This document shows, one piece after another, positions 1 to 31,925 of a DNA stretch of 34,428 bases (position 1 is its first letter; the number at the start of each line of letters is the position of its first letter). Under the pieces are notes generated by a model, which saw nothing but the letters and a program-made list of their open reading frames with translations, did not search any database and was not told the origin of the DNA. The stretch is taken from the NCBI GenBank assembly GCA_031279825.1, contig JAITHT010000030.1:1-34428 (forward strand), in the 5' to 3' direction. Origin of the DNA: Desulfovibrio sp. Lineage in GTDB: Bacteria; Desulfobacterota; Desulfovibrionia; Desulfovibrionales; Desulfovibrionaceae. Position numbers and translations under genes: made by a program.

Positions 1-200
1 AGGTAGCGAAGCCCTTCAGGGCTTCGCGTCTTGCGCTTGGGAGGGGTTTGGACCCCTCCCAAGCTTCCGCCCCGGAAAGAAACCCCGCCCTTCAGGGCGG
101 GGTCGGGGCTATATCCGGCCTGAAGGCCGGGGTTTCAGACCACAAAGGAAGTTCTGATGAGGTAGCGAAGCCCTGAAGGGCTTCGCTACCTCATTTGGAT
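1..200 (+). repeat. Hairpin-rich interspersed repeat, copy A, with inverted ends
   Basis: This is the most complete copy in the window; its left edge is cut by the window start. In order it holds four hairpins: GCGAAGCCC/GGGCTTCGC around TTCA, a long GCTTGGGAGGGG/CCCCTCCCAAGC stem, CCCCGCCC/GGGCGGGG around TTCA, and CCGGCC/GGCCGG around TGAA. These are followed by a conserved tail ending CCACAAAGGAAG at about 140-151. Positions 158-193 are a perfect 16-bp inverted repeat with a 4-nt loop. Read from 200 backwards, this right end repeats the left-end sequence of the unit (ATCCAAATGAGG then AGCGAAGCCC), so the element appears to have terminal inverted repeats like a MITE. It lies past the 3' end of the S1-domain gene. 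Confidence 0.85.
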
Positions 201-7217: not shown

Positions 7218-7225
7218 CCGCCAGG

Positions 7226-7362
7226 TTCCTTTTGTGGTTTGAAACTCCGGCCTTTAAGCCGGATATGGCCCGGCTTAAGCCCTGAAGGGCATCCCGCCGG
7301 GGGAAGCTTGGGAGGGGAATCCCCGCTCAAGCGCGAAACGCATGGGCCTTCATGCCCATGCC
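7226..7362 (-). repeat. Hairpin-rich interspersed repeat, copy D, abutting remA
   Basis: A diverged copy on the minus strand between yicC and remA. The tail (ATATCCGGC, GGCCGGAG, TTTCAAACCACAAAAGGAA) and the middle segment CCTCCCAAGCTTCC match copies A-C closely. The first hairpin has an entirely different stem sequence (GCATGGGC/GCCCATGC, 7340-7361) in the same place as GCGAAGCCC/GGGCTTCGC of copy A. The end of the element sits 8 nt from the remA start codon and supplies its ribosome binding site. Confidence 0.75.
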
Positions 7363-7379
7363 GTCTTATTGACGACAGT

Positions 7380-8261
7380 TTACTCCAGGTTCTGGATTTG
7401 TTCCCGGCATTTTTCCAGCTCGTTTTTCACGTCCACCACCAGGCGGGAAACCTGGACATCCTGAATTTTATTGCCGCAGGTGCTTATTTCCCGAAAGCAT
7501 TCCTGCAAAGTAAAGTCAAGCTTGCGGCCGGCATCCCTGCCGGAATGCAGCAATTCCCGCAGCCGCTCGAAATGCGCGGCGAGACGGGTCAATTCTTCGC
7601 TCACGTCGAGTTTGTCGGCCAGCAAGACAATTTCCTGAAGAAAGCGGGTTTCTTCCAATTCCTGATTGCAGCGCTCCAGCGCTTCCGAAACGCGTTCGCG
7701 CACAAGGGCGAAGCGTTCTTCTTTAACCGCCGGGGCGCGTTCGCGGATGCGCTGCGCCCACTCTTCCATATGCAGCAGGCGGGTAAGGAGATCTTTCTCC
7801 AGGGCGCGCGCTTCCGACGCGCGCGCTTCGTCCCAGTCTTCAAGGGCCATGCCGAGTCCGCGTTCAAGGCTCTGATACAGGGTATCGTCCGGTTCGGGCG
7901 GTCCTTCCTCCCAAAGAAAGGAGAGCGCCGCCAGGTGATTGTAATCAGGCACAAAGTCGTCGCCGCGCGACGAAGAGAACGCGGACAGAGCCTCAAGCAT
8001 GGCATCGGCCAGATCTTCGTTAAAGGCCGCCGGCCGCGCATCCTGACGGCGCATTTGCAGATAGAGGGACAACTCCAGCCTGCCGCGGCCCGCGCGGCGC
8101 TTTACCAGCCGCTCGAGGGCCGGTTCCAGAGGGCGGATATGCGGGGGCAAACGCCAGCGGATATCAAGATGCCGCCCGTTCACGCTGCGTATTTCCCAAA
8201 CCTGGGTCCAGTCTTCTTCTTCCAGAAAACAGCGGCCAAAGCCGGTCATACTGCGTAACAT
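7380..8261 (-). CDS. yicC: YicC-family protein (endoribonuclease)
   Basis: A 293-aa protein starting MLRSMTGFGR, the hallmark N-terminus of the YicC family. It continues with a WEIRSVNGRHLDIRWRLP segment and ends with the conserved C-terminal DUF1732 region (DFTLQECFREISTCGNKI then VVDVKNELEKCREQIQNLE). E. coli YicC is an endoribonuclease implicated in small-RNA turnover. It is the first gene of the remA-gmk-pyrF run and is separated from remA by 162 bp occupied by repeat copy D. That insertion may partly uncouple yicC from the genes downstream. Confidence 0.93.
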   Translation of the reverse strand: MLRSMTGFGRCFLEEEDWTQVWEIRSVNGRHLDIRWRLPPHIRPLEPALERLVKRRAGRGRLELSLYLQMRRQDARPAAFNEDLADAMLEALSAFSSSRGDDFVPDYNHLAALSFLWEEGPPEPDDTLYQSLERGLGMALEDWDEARASEARALEKDLLTRLLHMEEWAQRIRERAPAVKEERFALVRERVSEALERCNQELEETRFLQEIVLLADKLDVSEELTRLAAHFERLRELLHSGRDAGRKLDFTLQECFREISTCGNKIQDVQVSRLVVDVKNELEKCREQIQNLE

Positions 8262-11978: not shown

Positions 11979-12135
11979 ATCCAAGTGAGGTAGCGAAGCC
12001 CTTCAGGGCTTCGCGTCTTGCGCTTGGGAGGGGTCCCAACCCCTCCCAAGCTTCCGCCCCGGAAAGAAACCCCGCCCTTCAGGGCGGGGTCGGGGCTATA
12101 TGGCCTTGCGGCCGGGGTTTCAGACCACAAAGGAA
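11979..12135 (+). repeat. Hairpin-rich interspersed repeat, copy B
   Basis: Nearly identical to copy A over its length: GTAGCGAAGCCC/GGGCTTCGC, GCTTGGGAGGGG/CCCCTCCCAAGC with a different loop (TCCCAA), CCCCGCCC/GGGCGGGG, then GGCC/GGCC with loop TTGC, ending CAGACCACAAAGGAA. It occupies most of the 362-bp gap between the convergent ends of hom and lpxI. The rest of that gap holds a CCGGCC-type imperfect hairpin at about 11940-11972 and a CTCCGTACGTACGGGAG palindrome near 12233-12251, but no gene. No inverted right end follows this copy. Confidence 0.85.
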
Positions 12136-12259
12136 ATGAGGGAATACTCTTACGGTATTTGACCGGGATGCCGGACACACTCCGACGCGGCCGGAGGGCA
12201 AAAAGGCGTAGGGTTACCATGCCCTGAGGATGCCTCCGTACGTACGGGAGCCCTGGCGG

Positions 12260-21981: not shown

Positions 21982-23046
21982 TCAGATGGAATAGGCGTAG
22001 TCCGAATTCATGCCCCGCAGCCCGGCGTTTTGCCGCAAGATCACCCTTTCCCCGACAAAGGCGTAAAGGCGGTAAATCATGACCCTGACGGCGTCGCCCA
22101 CCGTCAGGGGAGGATCTTCCAGCGGATAGCGGGCAGGCAGAGAGATGCCTCCCACCGCGAGCCTGACCTCCAACCAGGCTCCCCTGAAGAGTATGCCTTC
22201 GACCACCGCCTCTTCCAGGCAGTTCGGGTATTGCCCCACCTCGCCCGGGGGCAGTATTCTGATGAACTCCGGGCGCACGGCCCCGGGCGCGGCCTCGCCC
22301 TCAAAACCCTTCAGCGCGGTCACATCGTCCAGGGGGGTGGAATCGCCGATAAAGCCGGCCACAAAGGGCGTCGCCGGGTCTTTGTAGAGTTCGGCAGGCC
22401 GTCCCAATTGCTCGACGACGCCCTGATTGGTGACGATGATGGTATCGGCCGCCTCCACGGCCTCGTCTTGATCGTGGGTGACAAAGATGCTGGTTACGCC
22501 GAGTCTGCCCACCATTTCCCGCAGCCAGAGGCGCAGCTCGCGGCGGACCTTGGCGTCCACGGCGGCAAAAGGCTCGTCCAGGAGCAGCAGACTGGGATTG
22601 GGGGCGAGAGCGCGGGCAAAGGCCACGCGCTGCTTCTGCCCGCCGGAAAGCTGGGCGGGATAGCGCCGCTCGAAACCCTCCAGCCCGATGAGGGCCAGAA
22701 GTTCGCTCACCCGATCGCGCACGGCGGCGCGGGGGATTTTTCTGACCTCCAGCCCGAAGGCGATGTTGTCGAACACGGTCATGTAGCGGAACAGGGCATA
22801 GTTCTGAAACACGAAGCCTATGCCCCTGCGGCTTGGCGGCATATCGTTCACCCTGAGCCCGTCGATGAGGATGTCGCCGTAATCCGGATTCTGCAGCCCG
22901 GCGATCATGCGCAAAATAGTGGTCTTGCCGCTGCCGCTCGGACCCAGCAGGGCCGCCAGCGCCCCCTTGTCCACGCCGAAACTCACATCCCGCGCGGCGC
23001 GCACCGCATCAAAACTTTTGTGAATATGCCGCAATTCAACGTACAT
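21982..23046 (-). CDS. cysA: Sulfate/thiosulfate ABC transporter ATPase CysA
   Basis: A 354-aa ABC ATPase that powers sulfate/thiosulfate import from the cytoplasmic face. It has Walker A GPSGSGKT at 35-42, the Q-loop in FVFQNYALF, signature LSGGQKQR at 133-140, and Walker B LLLLDEP at 153-159. The H-loop is in FVTHDQDEAVEAAD, and a C-terminal TOBE-like region follows. PAELYKDPATPFVAGFIGD is typical of CysA. The ATG at 23046 overlaps the end of cysW by 11 bp; the frame is open upstream within cysW. The permease partner CysT and the sulfate-binding protein are not encoded in the window. Confidence 0.92.
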   Translation of the reverse strand: MYVELRHIHKSFDAVRAARDVSFGVDKGALAALLGPSGSGKTTILRMIAGLQNPDYGDILIDGLRVNDMPPSRRGIGFVFQNYALFRYMTVFDNIAFGLEVRKIPRAAVRDRVSELLALIGLEGFERRYPAQLSGGQKQRVAFARALAPNPSLLLLDEPFAAVDAKVRRELRLWLREMVGRLGVTSIFVTHDQDEAVEAADTIIVTNQGVVEQLGRPAELYKDPATPFVAGFIGDSTPLDDVTALKGFEGEAAPGAVRPEFIRILPPGEVGQYPNCLEEAVVEGILFRGAWLEVRLAVGGISLPARYPLEDPPLTVGDAVRVMIYRLYAFVGERVILRQNAGLRGMNSDYAYSI

Positions 23047-23971
23047 GGCCGGAGTCCTCTCCGCCCGCCCGACGGGATCGCCACTCCACAGCGACACGCG
23101 CCGCCAGGATGAACAGAGCGGCTGTGGCGAGTAACGAGGCCACGGCGAAGGCGGCGGTAAATTTATATTCGTTGTAGAGAATTTCAACGTGCAGGGGCAG
23201 GGTATTGGTCTTGCCGCGCAAGCGGCCCGATACCACGGACACGGCCCCGAATTCGCCGAGGGCCCTGGCCGAACAGAGTATCACGCCGTATATCAGGGCC
23301 CAGCGGATATGCGGCAAGGTCACGCGGCGAAAAATAGTCAAAAATCCCGCCCCCATGAGAGCGGCGGCCTGCTCCTCGTCCGTGCCCCTGGCCTCCAGGG
23401 TCGGGATAAGCTCGCGGGCCACAAAGGGCATGGTGACGAAAATGGTGGCCAGTATAATGCCCGGCGTATCGAAAACAATGCTGATCCCGAATGCGTCAAG
23501 CCAGGGATGCAGCCAGCTCATGCGCCCGAAGGTCAGGATGAAAATAAGCCCGGCTATCACCGGCGAGACGGAAAAGGGAATATCAATGACCGTGATGAGC
23601 AGGCTCTTGCCTTTGAACGCATACCGGGTAACGGCCCAGGCCGCCGTCAGGCCGAACAGCGTGTTGACGGCTATGGCCAGGGAGGCGGCCTTGAGGGTCA
23701 GAACAAGGGCGCGCAGAGCATACTCATCGGACACGGCGTCGAGATAGACGGAAACGCCGGCGCTGAACGCCTCCACCAGCACCACGGCCAGGGGGGCAAT
23801 GAGCATGATCAGGATAAAGGCGAGGCTTACGGCTATAAGCGGCCCGTTTACCCACGGATTGCCGCGAGCGCCGCGTTCCCGGCGCGGTGCCGCCTCTCCC
23901 GGCCGAAAGGGAAGGCTCCGGCCGCATTCTTCGTCAGAACTTCCTTTGTGGTCTGAGACCCCGGCCTTCAT
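23036..23971 (-). CDS. cysW: Sulfate ABC transporter permease CysW, start unclear
   Basis: A membrane permease with about six helices. The CysW signature regions are plain: IDIPFSVSPVIAGLIFIL, GIILATIFVTMPFVARELIP, and ARALGEFGAVSVVSG followed by TLPLHVEILYNEY. The core from NPWVNGPLIAVSLAF onward is intact. The N-terminus is a problem. The only nearby in-frame ATG is at 23971, inside repeat copy C, which gives 311 aa beginning MKAGVSDHKGSS. No in-frame start lies between the repeat and the first helix. A better-placed ATG at 23927, 13 nt after the repeat's AAAGGAAG, is out of frame by one base, so a recent frameshift is possible. cysT would normally lie upstream but is missing. Confidence 0.75.
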   Translation of the reverse strand: MKAGVSDHKGSSDEECGRSLPFRPGEAAPRRERGARGNPWVNGPLIAVSLAFILIMLIAPLAVVLVEAFSAGVSVYLDAVSDEYALRALVLTLKAASLAIAVNTLFGLTAAWAVTRYAFKGKSLLITVIDIPFSVSPVIAGLIFILTFGRMSWLHPWLDAFGISIVFDTPGIILATIFVTMPFVARELIPTLEARGTDEEQAAALMGAGFLTIFRRVTLPHIRWALIYGVILCSARALGEFGAVSVVSGRLRGKTNTLPLHVEILYNEYKFTAAFAVASLLATAALFILAARVAVEWRSRRAGGEDSGHVR

Positions 23972-24096
23972 GCCGGATATAGCCCCGACCCCGCCCTGAT
24001 GGGGGGGGCTTTCCGGGGAGGAAGCTTGGGAGGGGTTGGGACCCATCCCAAGCGCGAGACGCGAAGCCATGAAGGGCTTCGCTGCCTCATTTGGAT
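23931..24096 (-). repeat. Hairpin-rich interspersed repeat, copy C, at the cysW start
   Basis: Minus-strand copy, closely matching copy A, including the left end ATCCAAATGAGG and the tail CAGACCACAAAGGAAGTTCTGA. Stems are slightly degraded (AGCGAAGCC/GGCTTCGC, GCTTGGGATGGG/CCCCTCCCAAGC). It lies at the junction between cysW and the divergent ridA, and overlaps the 5' end of the cysW reading frame. Confidence 0.85.
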
Positions 24097-24261
24097 AAAA
24101 TTCATAATCTGCACGCATATTTTTCGTATATGACTGATTTTGGAGAAGAACGCAACCGGGCAGATTTTGCGGGGCGGGCGAGGCCTCTTGGATATTAATT
24201 TGCATGAAAATTCTTTATATTGTTTTTGTCAATACCACACTATCAATATAAGGAGAATCCC

Positions 24262-29944: not shown

Positions 29945-31558
29945 CTACAGGTTGGAGATAACATACATGAAGCGTTTGTTGAGTTCCAGAATCTGTTCCT
30001 GAATCTCGGCCTGCTCCTCCCGGGGGCGGTCGTGCGCATCCGCGAGGCTTGCGCGCAACTGGGCGAGTTTGCCTTCGGTTTCCGCGAGCAGCAGGGTCCA
30101 GTTGATCTTTCCGGAGGCGAGCCGTCTGTCCGCGCGCACCACGGGTTCTTTGCCGGGGGCGAGGGTGAGTTCTTCAAGGTAGGCGGGTGCGCTCACCCTC
30201 ACCTGAAAGCGCTCGCGCAGCAAATCGGCCAGAATTCGCTGGGCCTTGCTTTCGCCGTGGAGCAGAAAAACGGTCAGTTCCGGCCGGACGAAGCGGCTGA
30301 CCCATTCCAGGAGCTGGCTTTGCCCGGCATGGGCGGAAAATCCGCCGATGGTGAAGATTTTCGCGGCCACGGCTATGTCTTCGCCCAGGATGGAAATGCT
30401 TTTGGCTCCGTCGATGATTTTGCGGCCCGGCGTGCCCACGGACTGATAACCGACAAAGACGATGCTGGCGTCGGGCCGCCAGAGATTGTGGCGCAGGTGG
30501 TGCTTGATGCGTCCGGCGTTGCACATGCCGCTGGCCGAAATGATGATGGCCGGCCCCTGTCGGGCGTTGATGGCCTGGGAAGCCCCGGCGTCAAGGGTAT
30601 ACTGCAGGCCGGGCAGAGAGAGAGGATCGTCTCCGGAGGCGATGTAGTCTCCGGTCTGCCGATCGAGAAAGTCGCCGTGCTTGCGGAAAATTTTTGTGGC
30701 CTTGATGGCCATGGGGCTGTCCACATAGACGGGAATGCCCTCGGGAAGGCTGCCTTCCTTATGGAGCAGAAACAGGGAGTGGAGAATTTCCTGGGTGCGT
30801 TCCACGGCAAAGGCGGGGATAATGGTCTTGCCGCCCCGGCTGGAGGCGTGGCGGATGGCGTCGGCCAGTTCGTCGCGGCTGCTGTCCTCGTTTCTGTGGT
30901 TCCGATCGCCGTAGGTGGATTCCATGAATAGATAATCGACGGGCATAGCCGGTTGCGCGGGCGCGTTCATGAGCAGGGCACCCGGCCTGCCGAGATCGCC
31001 GGAAAACAGCAGGCGGGTGAGCGCGCCGTTTTCAGAGATCTCTATTTCCAGAAAGGAGGAACCGAGAATATGGCCGGCGTCGCGGTAGCATACGCGCACG
31101 CCCGGAGCGGGCTCGAAGGCTTCCCCGTAACGCGTCGGACGTAGCCTGCTGAGAACAGCCCTGGCTTCCTCAAGGGTATAGAGCGCTTCGACGGGGTCTT
31201 CCTTGCCGCGGCGGGCGCGTTTGCGGTTGGCCCATTCCGCTTCCATCTCCTGGATATAGGCGCTGTCTTCCAGCATGAGGGAGACAAGATCGACGGTCGG
31301 TTCGGTACAGTAGACCAGACCGTCGAAGTTTTCCCGCATCATGCGGGGCAGCAGCCCGCTGTGATCGATATGGGCGTGGGTAAGCAGGATGAAATCCAGC
31401 TTCGCCGCCTGATAAACCCGGGTGTTGCAGTTGCGTTTCTCAATCTCCGCGTTGCCCTGGTGCATGCCGCAGTCAACGGCGAAACGGGCGTGTTCGGTTT
31501 CCAGGATGCAGCAGGAACCGGTAACGGTCTGGGCGGCGCCCAGCAACTGGACTTTCAT
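29945..31558 (-). CDS. Beta-CASP metallo-beta-lactamase-fold RNase
   Basis: A 537-aa protein of the metallo-beta-lactamase/beta-CASP class with an RMMBL domain, related to CPSF-73-like exonucleases. LTHAHIDHSG gives the zinc motif HxHxDH at 61-66. Further metal ligands appear in YRDAGHILGSSFLE and LLFSGDLGRPG. The beta-CASP region includes TIIPAFAVERTQEIL and AIIISASGMCNAGRIKHHL, and GGFSAHAGQSQLLEW plus VFLLHGESKAQ form the RMMBL part. A charged helical extension of about 80 residues follows. The ATG at 31558 has AAAGGAAAG upstream; an in-frame ATG at 31591 is less likely. The role is probably RNA processing or turnover. Confidence 0.9.
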   Translation of the reverse strand: MKVQLLGAAQTVTGSCCILETEHARFAVDCGMHQGNAEIEKRNCNTRVYQAAKLDFILLTHAHIDHSGLLPRMMRENFDGLVYCTEPTVDLVSLMLEDSAYIQEMEAEWANRKRARRGKEDPVEALYTLEEARAVLSRLRPTRYGEAFEPAPGVRVCYRDAGHILGSSFLEIEISENGALTRLLFSGDLGRPGALLMNAPAQPAMPVDYLFMESTYGDRNHRNEDSSRDELADAIRHASSRGGKTIIPAFAVERTQEILHSLFLLHKEGSLPEGIPVYVDSPMAIKATKIFRKHGDFLDRQTGDYIASGDDPLSLPGLQYTLDAGASQAINARQGPAIIISASGMCNAGRIKHHLRHNLWRPDASIVFVGYQSVGTPGRKIIDGAKSISILGEDIAVAAKIFTIGGFSAHAGQSQLLEWVSRFVRPELTVFLLHGESKAQRILADLLRERFQVRVSAPAYLEELTLAPGKEPVVRADRRLASGKINWTLLLAETEGKLAQLRASLADAHDRPREEQAEIQEQILELNKRFMYVISNL

Positions 31559-31925
31559 CAAACTTTCCTTTGTGGCATCGGGCAACTCCATAAAAGACGA
31601 GATTTCGCGTGGCGCCCTGACGGCAAAAGACCGACGGCATCGTCATCGGCGGATTGATGACAATGCCTTGCAGGGGGATGCCTTGCCTCCTGTGTTCGCA
31701 GGCTAGGGCCATCCTGCGAAACAGCGATGCCACTGTAAATCTTTTGCTTTGCGACATCAATGCCTTTGCCGGGAGAAAAGCGTATTTTACCCGTTATACA
31801 GTGCGAATGCTTCGGATTCTTCCGGCTGGATTCTTGCGGAGATTTGCGTTATGGTTCGTTTCGTTGCGGCGCGGGAAAAAAGCGCGGGTCGGGACGGATG
31901 TCGTTTTGAGGAGACTGTCAGGAAC
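31559..31925. other. Divergent intergenic region, no gene seen
   Basis: Lies between the beta-CASP gene (minus) and the adhesin-like gene (plus). No RNA gene, repeat copy or convincing promoter pair was recognised. A GTTATACAG box near 31795 is a possible -10 for the plus-strand gene. If that gene starts at the ATG at 31851 instead of 31926, the region is shorter. Confidence 0.4.

Follow-up and report, generated by a model that had tools for sequence, protein, structure and literature searches.

The classical MITEs, such as Correia/NEMIS and ERIC, have terminal inverted repeats and duplications. IS91 has one-sided targets, HEARO inserts before ATGA or GTGA, and the REP2 repeat has, at its end beside start codons, a sequence like a ribosome-binding site. 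The Neisseria REP2 family comprises stem-loop repeats of 59–154 bp in 26 copies, according to the available part of its description (PMC2267715). The available parts of two sources on IS200/IS605 (PMC7290912, PMC6006769) describe elements that lack terminal inverted repeats, cause no duplication and insert 3' of a tetra- or pentanucleotide, with a hairpin needed at each end and a preference for the lagging-strand template. Background on RAYT genes and REPINs is given in excerpts of PMC3733652 and PMC3116915.

We analysed a stretch of 34,428 nucleotides from Desulfovibrio sp. (the window), which is the whole of contig 87 in a draft genome of 2.23 Mb (94 contigs, 83% complete). An earlier note had described four copies of a multi-hairpin repeat with MITE-like ends in this DNA. 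Our analysis supports the hairpin-rich repeat as an interspersed, non-autonomous mobile family that occurs in both orientations and at non-orthologous positions too.

Results

A hairpin-rich repeat with two unrelated ends

All four copies lie where the earlier note had placed them and in the same orientations (Table 1), and the alignment agrees with the common order of four hairpins that it had proposed; one copy (L073) was also folded. Further copies in the genome bear out an interspersed family in both orientations, and placement at orthologous positions only, which was checked, is not the case. Copies A, B and C adjoin predicted gene ends, as claimed for all four, but D sits within an open frame (23036-24205), in its 5' region. 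Copies B to D had also been said to lack the right end. However, this end extends beyond CCACAAAGGAA to GTTCTG, immediately before ATGA, and thus D is not truncated, C is short of GTTCTG only, and B is decayed. The decayed right end of copy B, CCACAAAAGGAACCTGGCGG, stands directly before the ATG (7217) of a RemA-like gene, whose putative Shine-Dalgarno sequence, AAAAGGA, is a relic of this copy. At the fifth, relic copy, the ATG at 31558 opens 537 codons of a frame with a beta-CASP metallo-beta-lactamase fold (ORF 29945-31591).

Table 1. Repeat copies and adjoining features in the window, with covariance-model scores in bits where given.
Feature	Position	Strand	Remarks
Copy A, standard element	1..156	+	191.8 bits; left (5') end cut off by contig end; right end ...AAAGGAAGTTCTG at 156; target ATGA 157-160
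Remainder of a 50-bp palindrome made of two left ends, apparent insertion site of copy A	157..200	-	presumed nesting
RemA-like gene, 85 aa	6960..7217	-	PF04025, E 1.4e-31
Copy B, diverged full-length, between yicC and the RemA-like gene	7218..7375	-	74.7 bits
yicC, beside copy B	7380-8261	-	
Copy C, standard element minus last 6 nt (GTTCTG)	11979..12135	+	203.6 bits; target ATGA 12136-12139
Right half of another repeat, 3' of copy C	12136..12219	+	86% to L107, 89% to L109
Copy D, complete element	23935..24096	-	174.2 bits; target now ACGA (23931-23934)
Fifth copy, right-end-only relic CCACAAAGGAAAGTTTG followed by ATGA	31555..31575	-	

The left end of the family is ATCCAAATGAGGTAG followed by a hairpin and the right end is CCACAAAGGAAGTTCTG; the two are unrelated. 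In the alignment, the consensus runs from ATCCAAATGAGGTAG through hairpin 1 (CGAAGCCC-TTCA-GGGCTTCG), hairpin 2 (GCTTGGGAGGGG/CCCCTCCCAAGC), a forked hairpin 3 and hairpin 4 (CCGGCC/GGCCGG) to GGTTTCAGACCACAAAGGAAGTTCTG. A hairpin thus lies near each end, as seen in the alignment of 38 copies and in the folds of one, and GTAG stands at the foot of the left hairpin in most aligned copies. L073, the copy folded, is far more stable than its shuffles as RNA (z -5.5), and its complement gave z -7.1 as single-stranded DNA. The covariance model was built from 38 rows, copies C and D among them. Within the genome, the covariation score was 0.031 against 0.023 in shuffles (8/500 shuffles), and the two pairs with compensatory double changes were no excess over shuffles (350/500). 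No match at gathering score to Rfam was found in the window, and none of the 13 sub-threshold matches in six loci (E up to 10) was to HEARO; we therefore rejected a known RNA family as the identity of the repeat.

Searches of the genome for the ends gave 67 exact copies of CCACAAAGGAA, and 74 right and 70 left ends at up to 3 mismatches, with none for the reversed-pattern control in either case. Pairing of the two different end patterns selected 57 matches, which became 56 two-ended copies on removal of one 10-nt pairing artefact. Including ATGA, 36 of these measure 166-170 bp, 13 measure 89-95 bp, five measure 233-238 bp, and there is one each of 155 and 63 bp. The short class (89-95 bp) is as expected if hairpins 1 and 3 had fused at the GCCCTTCAGGGC common to both, and the long one bears an additional module. 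Two palindromes of 50 bp consist of two left ends only (G000:C7:37644-37693 and C78:16453-16502). The window and 52 further stretches hold 85 placements, a count in which halves at contig edges, and the two halves of one palindrome, enter separately; as some placements are halves at contig ends, we give the family size as roughly 80, and not the hundreds that the earlier note had extrapolated. Fifteen contig ends fall within a copy, nine of them 117-119 nt in, as expected where a repeat breaks the assembly.

The terminal inverted repeats suggested for the family turned out to be peculiar to copy A, which has a perfect inverted repeat of 27 nt. This apparent repeat starts exactly at the target ATGA, and what follows GTTCTG is the 50-bp left-end palindrome less its first six letters. 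Most simply, copy A would have inserted into a palindrome of two left ends, between ATCCAA and ATGAGGTAG...CTACCTCATTTGGAT; we infer the nesting, since the contig breaks off before the left junction. In the set of 56 two-ended copies, an inverted left end never occurs within 80 nt of the right end, and inverted left ends were seen at copy A and in the two 50-bp palindromes, so we discarded terminal inverted repeats as a trait of the family. Elsewhere, L103 (G000:C54:15913-18415) carries ATCCAA twice over, the second time as part of ATCCAAATGAGG, the type of trace left by insertion between ATCCAA and ATGA. The same locus has a pair of left ends that point the same way, spaced about 480 bp and without right ends, one of them directly after ATCCAA.

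Insertion next to ATGA

Directly after GTTCTG, the 74 right ends read A in 74, T in 72, G in 68 and A in 69 cases. When right ends with less than 320 nt of flank were dropped, 72 were kept, and the tetranucleotide was ATGA in 60, ATGC in five, ATCA in three, ATAA in two, and ACAA and ACGA in one each. The left flanks (n=71) have nothing conserved, the top base reaching at most 29/71 at any of 15 positions.

Uninterrupted counterparts were sought in sampled genome sequence by joining the flanks of the 56 two-ended copies (up to 5/32 mismatches). They were found for two, and both join exactly at the insertion point. The joined flanks of L107 equal L109 over 32/32 bases, and the match goes on for 51 bases to the left (92%) and 86 to the right (94%) with no gap. 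Those of L121 match a palindromic repeat, with one mismatch to L076 and two each to L040, L081 and L106. At these two sites, insertion of the window's subfamily entailed neither target duplication nor loss, and the target-site duplications that had been anticipated were not found. With family-wide terminal inverted repeats (0/56) and target duplication (two empty sites) both lacking, the identification as a MITE was rejected.

A further comparison comes from an HflX-type GTPase gene, at whose 3' border this genome has a sense element. We read nine congener loci and dropped one with another upstream gene (L342); of the eight with the GTPase upstream, five are empty and three have an antisense element of another subfamily. 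The uninterrupted sites and the empty hflX loci show the family to be mobile, and its mobility with the ATGA target we regard as nearly certain.

Several other repeats came to light at these places. One of about 140 bp is uninterrupted in L109 (L109:353-495); in L107 the element splits it at the same point as at copy C, next to which the right half is found. A palindromic family, GAAGTCATTTCATAATTCACTATGAAATGACTTC, which acted as an insertion target, occurs in the same genome at L076:258-300, L081:3996-4040, L106, L091 and L121, and in several places adjoins a CGCCGGAC.../GTCCGGCG hairpin. Yet another interspersed repeat, a palindrome around GAGCATTTTCACTTTGAAAATGCTC, is found in the right flank of L107 and in L131, L124, L081, L122 and L128.

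Candidate mechanism and mobiliser

Insertion would take place directly 5' of ATGA, with nothing duplicated or removed. Viewed on the complement strand it would be 3' of TCAT, as for IS200/IS605 elements, and the hairpin near each end would serve a single-strand HUH transposase of the Y1 type supplied in trans. We give a little better than an even chance to the reading that these are non-autonomous, site- and orientation-specific elements, mobilised in trans by such an HUH (Y1-type) enzyme and with ends that spare translation; single-strand transposition in trans, taken by itself, we put at about even. The TCAT strand is the G-rich strand in 55/85 placements (p 0.009). In overlapping subsets of these the proportions are 49/77 (p 0.022), 30/46 at stronger skew (p 0.054) and 26/41 for the right ends there (p 0.12), and a short-flank test gave 46/72 (p 0.024) and, at stronger skew, 15/25 (p 0.42). 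This weak, subset-dependent bias agrees in direction with a lagging-strand preference.

Mobilisation in trans, as proposed in the earlier note, is likely, but the transposase with the same ends that it had envisaged was not found in the 83%-complete draft, and neither was a copy enclosing a gene. The draft has a single long, intact Y1 frame, a gene of REP type that is RAYT-like (L145, G000:C53:15692-16015; 77.7 bits, cut-off 80), and this has other flanking motifs. A broken second copy lies at L146 (C80:40031-40225); with a GGGGACATAATACT-like sequence at L145, the gene resembles the TIR-flanked Y1 genes in the available part of PMC3733652. Among 11 family-bearing genomes of the genus, the present one counted, four had no Y1 match, one of these four being 92% complete, and Y1 matches were present in 3/4 genomes without the family. 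As partner, the Y1 genes seen in this draft were set aside, L145 having other flanks and Y1 not tracking the family in the genus. No transposase with the same ends was found either, and so the HUH enzyme, like the strand that moves, is our inference.

The RAYT-like gene could also be read the other way, as the agent of a REP/REPIN-like family in which the left-end GTAG and its hairpin are the recognised part. The left end, GGTAG-CGAAGCCC-TTCA-GGGCTTCG, does resemble the REP hairpins with a GT[AG]G foot in the available part of PMC6006769, and inverted doublets of 50 bp are present. We nevertheless consider movement by a RAYT unlikely, because the repeat does not flank the gene, 4/11 family-bearing genomes gave no Y1 match, and no GTAG was seen at the left end of a second subfamily (below) that has the same right end and target.

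A one-sided target without duplication could equally belong to a relative of another class, either Y2/IS91 or the RNA-guided elements linked to IscB/IsrB. For the latter, the available part of PMC9581776 gives NTGA as the target-adjacent motif of IsrB; IsrB is of the same superfamily as the HUH elements, and its motif counts for that reading too. Matches to RRXRR and Y2 were absent from all 15 genomes, although the control genomes were silent too in both searches, and neither the gathering-score Rfam search of the window nor the six sub-threshold loci pointed to HEARO. On this evidence we hold such a relationship to be improbable, and continue to favour a Y1-type HUH enzyme.

Candidate translation signals at the two ends

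The AAAGGA of the right end lies 7 nt 5' of the target ATG, so that a gene starting at ATGA keeps its start codon and gains a possible new ribosome-binding site. In this genome, the frame of the target ATG stays open over 100 codons or more at 19/72 right ends (ATG in 18, ATC in one), against 2 and 14 for the remaining frames; the third frame is therefore often open as well. In a congener sample of 27 right ends, from loci chosen for few mismatches, the ATG frame is long in 18 and the others in 0 and 7; among 24 right ends of Cand. Mailhella excrementigallinarum the corresponding numbers are 13, 0 and 0. Use of the supplied AAAGGA by ribosomes would be a plausible consequence.

At the other side, the left end ATCCAAATGA remakes a TGA stop in frame for an upstream gene ending in the same ATGA: a gene once ending xxA TGA now reads xxA TCC AAA TGA. 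Among 20 copies reached by at least 100 open codons, 13 use the stop-restoring frame and four and three the others. Not every open left frame is a gene, and at L073 it is a different frame, one that stops before reaching the element, that looks like the gene. The stop is restored in frame at three Pfam-confirmed genes, phoU, aroA and hflX, of which phoU stands before a response regulator and aroA before a prephenate dehydrogenase-like gene. Landing next to ATGA and a right end resembling a ribosome-binding site together mean that the repeat can enter between genes at little cost.

These features might suggest that the repeat is mainly a cis-regulatory leader, a portable 5'-UTR spread by recombination instead of transposition. 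Stable hairpins directly 5' of a Shine-Dalgarno-like sequence would suit such a role, as would the 18/27 congener loci (the sample chosen for few mismatches) where the target ATG opens a long frame, and the available parts of two sources link Neisseria REP2/CREN to contact induction (PMC9031163, PMC3898611). Yet the insertion junctions are exact, inside other repeats as well, 54/72 right ends of this genome have no long ATG frame, and the two compensatory pairs do not exceed the shuffles. We regard a leader spread in this way as quite improbable and retain transposition. Right ends are perfect in 38/54 cases away from gene starts and in 16/18 at gene starts; being nearly as intact off gene starts, their conservation is sufficiently explained by transposition or youth, without selection for ribosome binding. 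We dropped displaced native Shine-Dalgarno sites as proof of insertion, because a loose motif left of the element is as common elsewhere (11/44 other copies) as at gene starts (3/12).

Relatives of the family and a second subfamily

Under a strict search (1 mismatch), the right end occurs in 6/40 related genomes, this one included, all within the genus. A looser right-end motif occurs in 11/15 genomes of the genus, 2 to 101 times each (control 0). The named motif-bearing relatives are, by the record titles among the matches listed, largely termite-gut Desulfovibrio assemblies; we take the sample codes of those Desulfovibrio to mean termite gut. Counts of the looser motif, again among the matches listed, are 127 in Cand. 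Mailhella excrementigallinarum, 45 in another Mailhella, 39 in a rumen Desulfovibrio, 24 in a Desulfovibrionaceae assembly, 10 in D. piger, 13 in Moraxella sp. and nine in Neisseria elongata, and the matches in Psychrobacter (1), Treponema (1) and Anaerofustis (2) seem fortuitous. The same plan was seen in 3/3 Moraxella and 2/3 N. elongata places examined at full length. In the two from N. elongata (L307, L314) it runs ATGTTTCAA...hairpins...GGTTTCAACC..TTAAGGAAATTTTG up to ATGA, before open frames.

Many of the relatives' copies examined form a second subfamily, which has ATGTTTCAATCCAC as its left end, other hairpins and the same kind of right end. One genome (G009) carries both subfamilies (L160, L171), and some of its targets are GTGA. 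In the second subfamily, the left ATG remains ATG in 3/3 copies with an ACGA target and in L330 (GTGA), and L326 has GTG on both sides. A 3-bp RTG duplication is thus ambiguous there, and we confine the claim of no duplication to the window's subfamily. At L163, L171, L293, L307 and L314, the second subfamily's left end ATGTTTCAA... could also be translated as the beginning of a small ORF (MFQST... or MFQHT...), perhaps for a leader peptide. In L337 (G042) and L334 (G009), the right end of one copy is followed at once by another element, so that right-end motifs are nested.

The plasmids searched had no match to the window's subfamily, and the viral contigs no exact right-end motif. For a D. 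piger copy, plasmids gave one match of 47 bp, in Polaromonas, and phages gave none. With this single match, carriage by plasmids, phages or viruses was rejected. A full-text literature search for the end sequences returned nothing relevant, which does not prove that the family is undescribed.

Discussion

Taken more widely, the relatives might belong to a broad, undescribed superfamily of translation-sparing mobile cassettes that extends from gut Desulfovibrionaceae to Moraxella and Neisseria, with REP2 as its known member. Such cassettes would move by single-strand transposition into RTGA, have a right end that supplies a start and, in the window's subfamily, a left end that restores a stop, be nearly silent at the stop/start overlap of operons, and turn with age into ribosome-binding sites of the host. 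We put this forward tentatively, as possible but well short of an even chance.

The ATGA stop/start overlap of operons is the tightest part of bacterial genomes, and our data suggest that transposable elements can adapt to it by bringing replacement translation signals. Repeats with ribosome-binding sites, REP2 among them, may have arisen in this way, which may also be a route by which host genes gain new translation signals.

Among known systems, the classical MITEs (Correia/NEMIS, ERIC) are likewise short, non-coding and interspersed, but the present family has neither terminal inverted repeats nor target duplications. With the OMEGA systems IscB/IsrB and with HEARO it shares a multi-hairpin element and an NTGA-type motif on one side; it differs in having no Rfam match and no nuclease gene found, in a search where the control was silent too. 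The GTAG that most aligned copies of the window's subfamily have at the left hairpin foot and the roughly 80 interspersed copies recall GTAG REPs and REPINs, although this family is asymmetric, longer and site-specific, with no link to a RAYT here. The likeness to REP2 lies in the end resembling a ribosome-binding site before predicted start codons (18/72 right ends here) and, for REP2/CREN, in the plan of N. elongata L307 and L314, REP2 being compared by description only; the window's subfamily differs from those REP2-like copies in its left end and interior. IS200/IS605 elements share the lack of terminal inverted repeats and of target duplication, the oriented insertion by a fixed tetranucleotide and the hairpin near each end. 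In contrast to them, the family was found without tnpA or tnpB bearing these ends, and it is set apart by its target ATGA (TCAT on the complement), its extra internal hairpins and its ribosome-binding-site-like right end.
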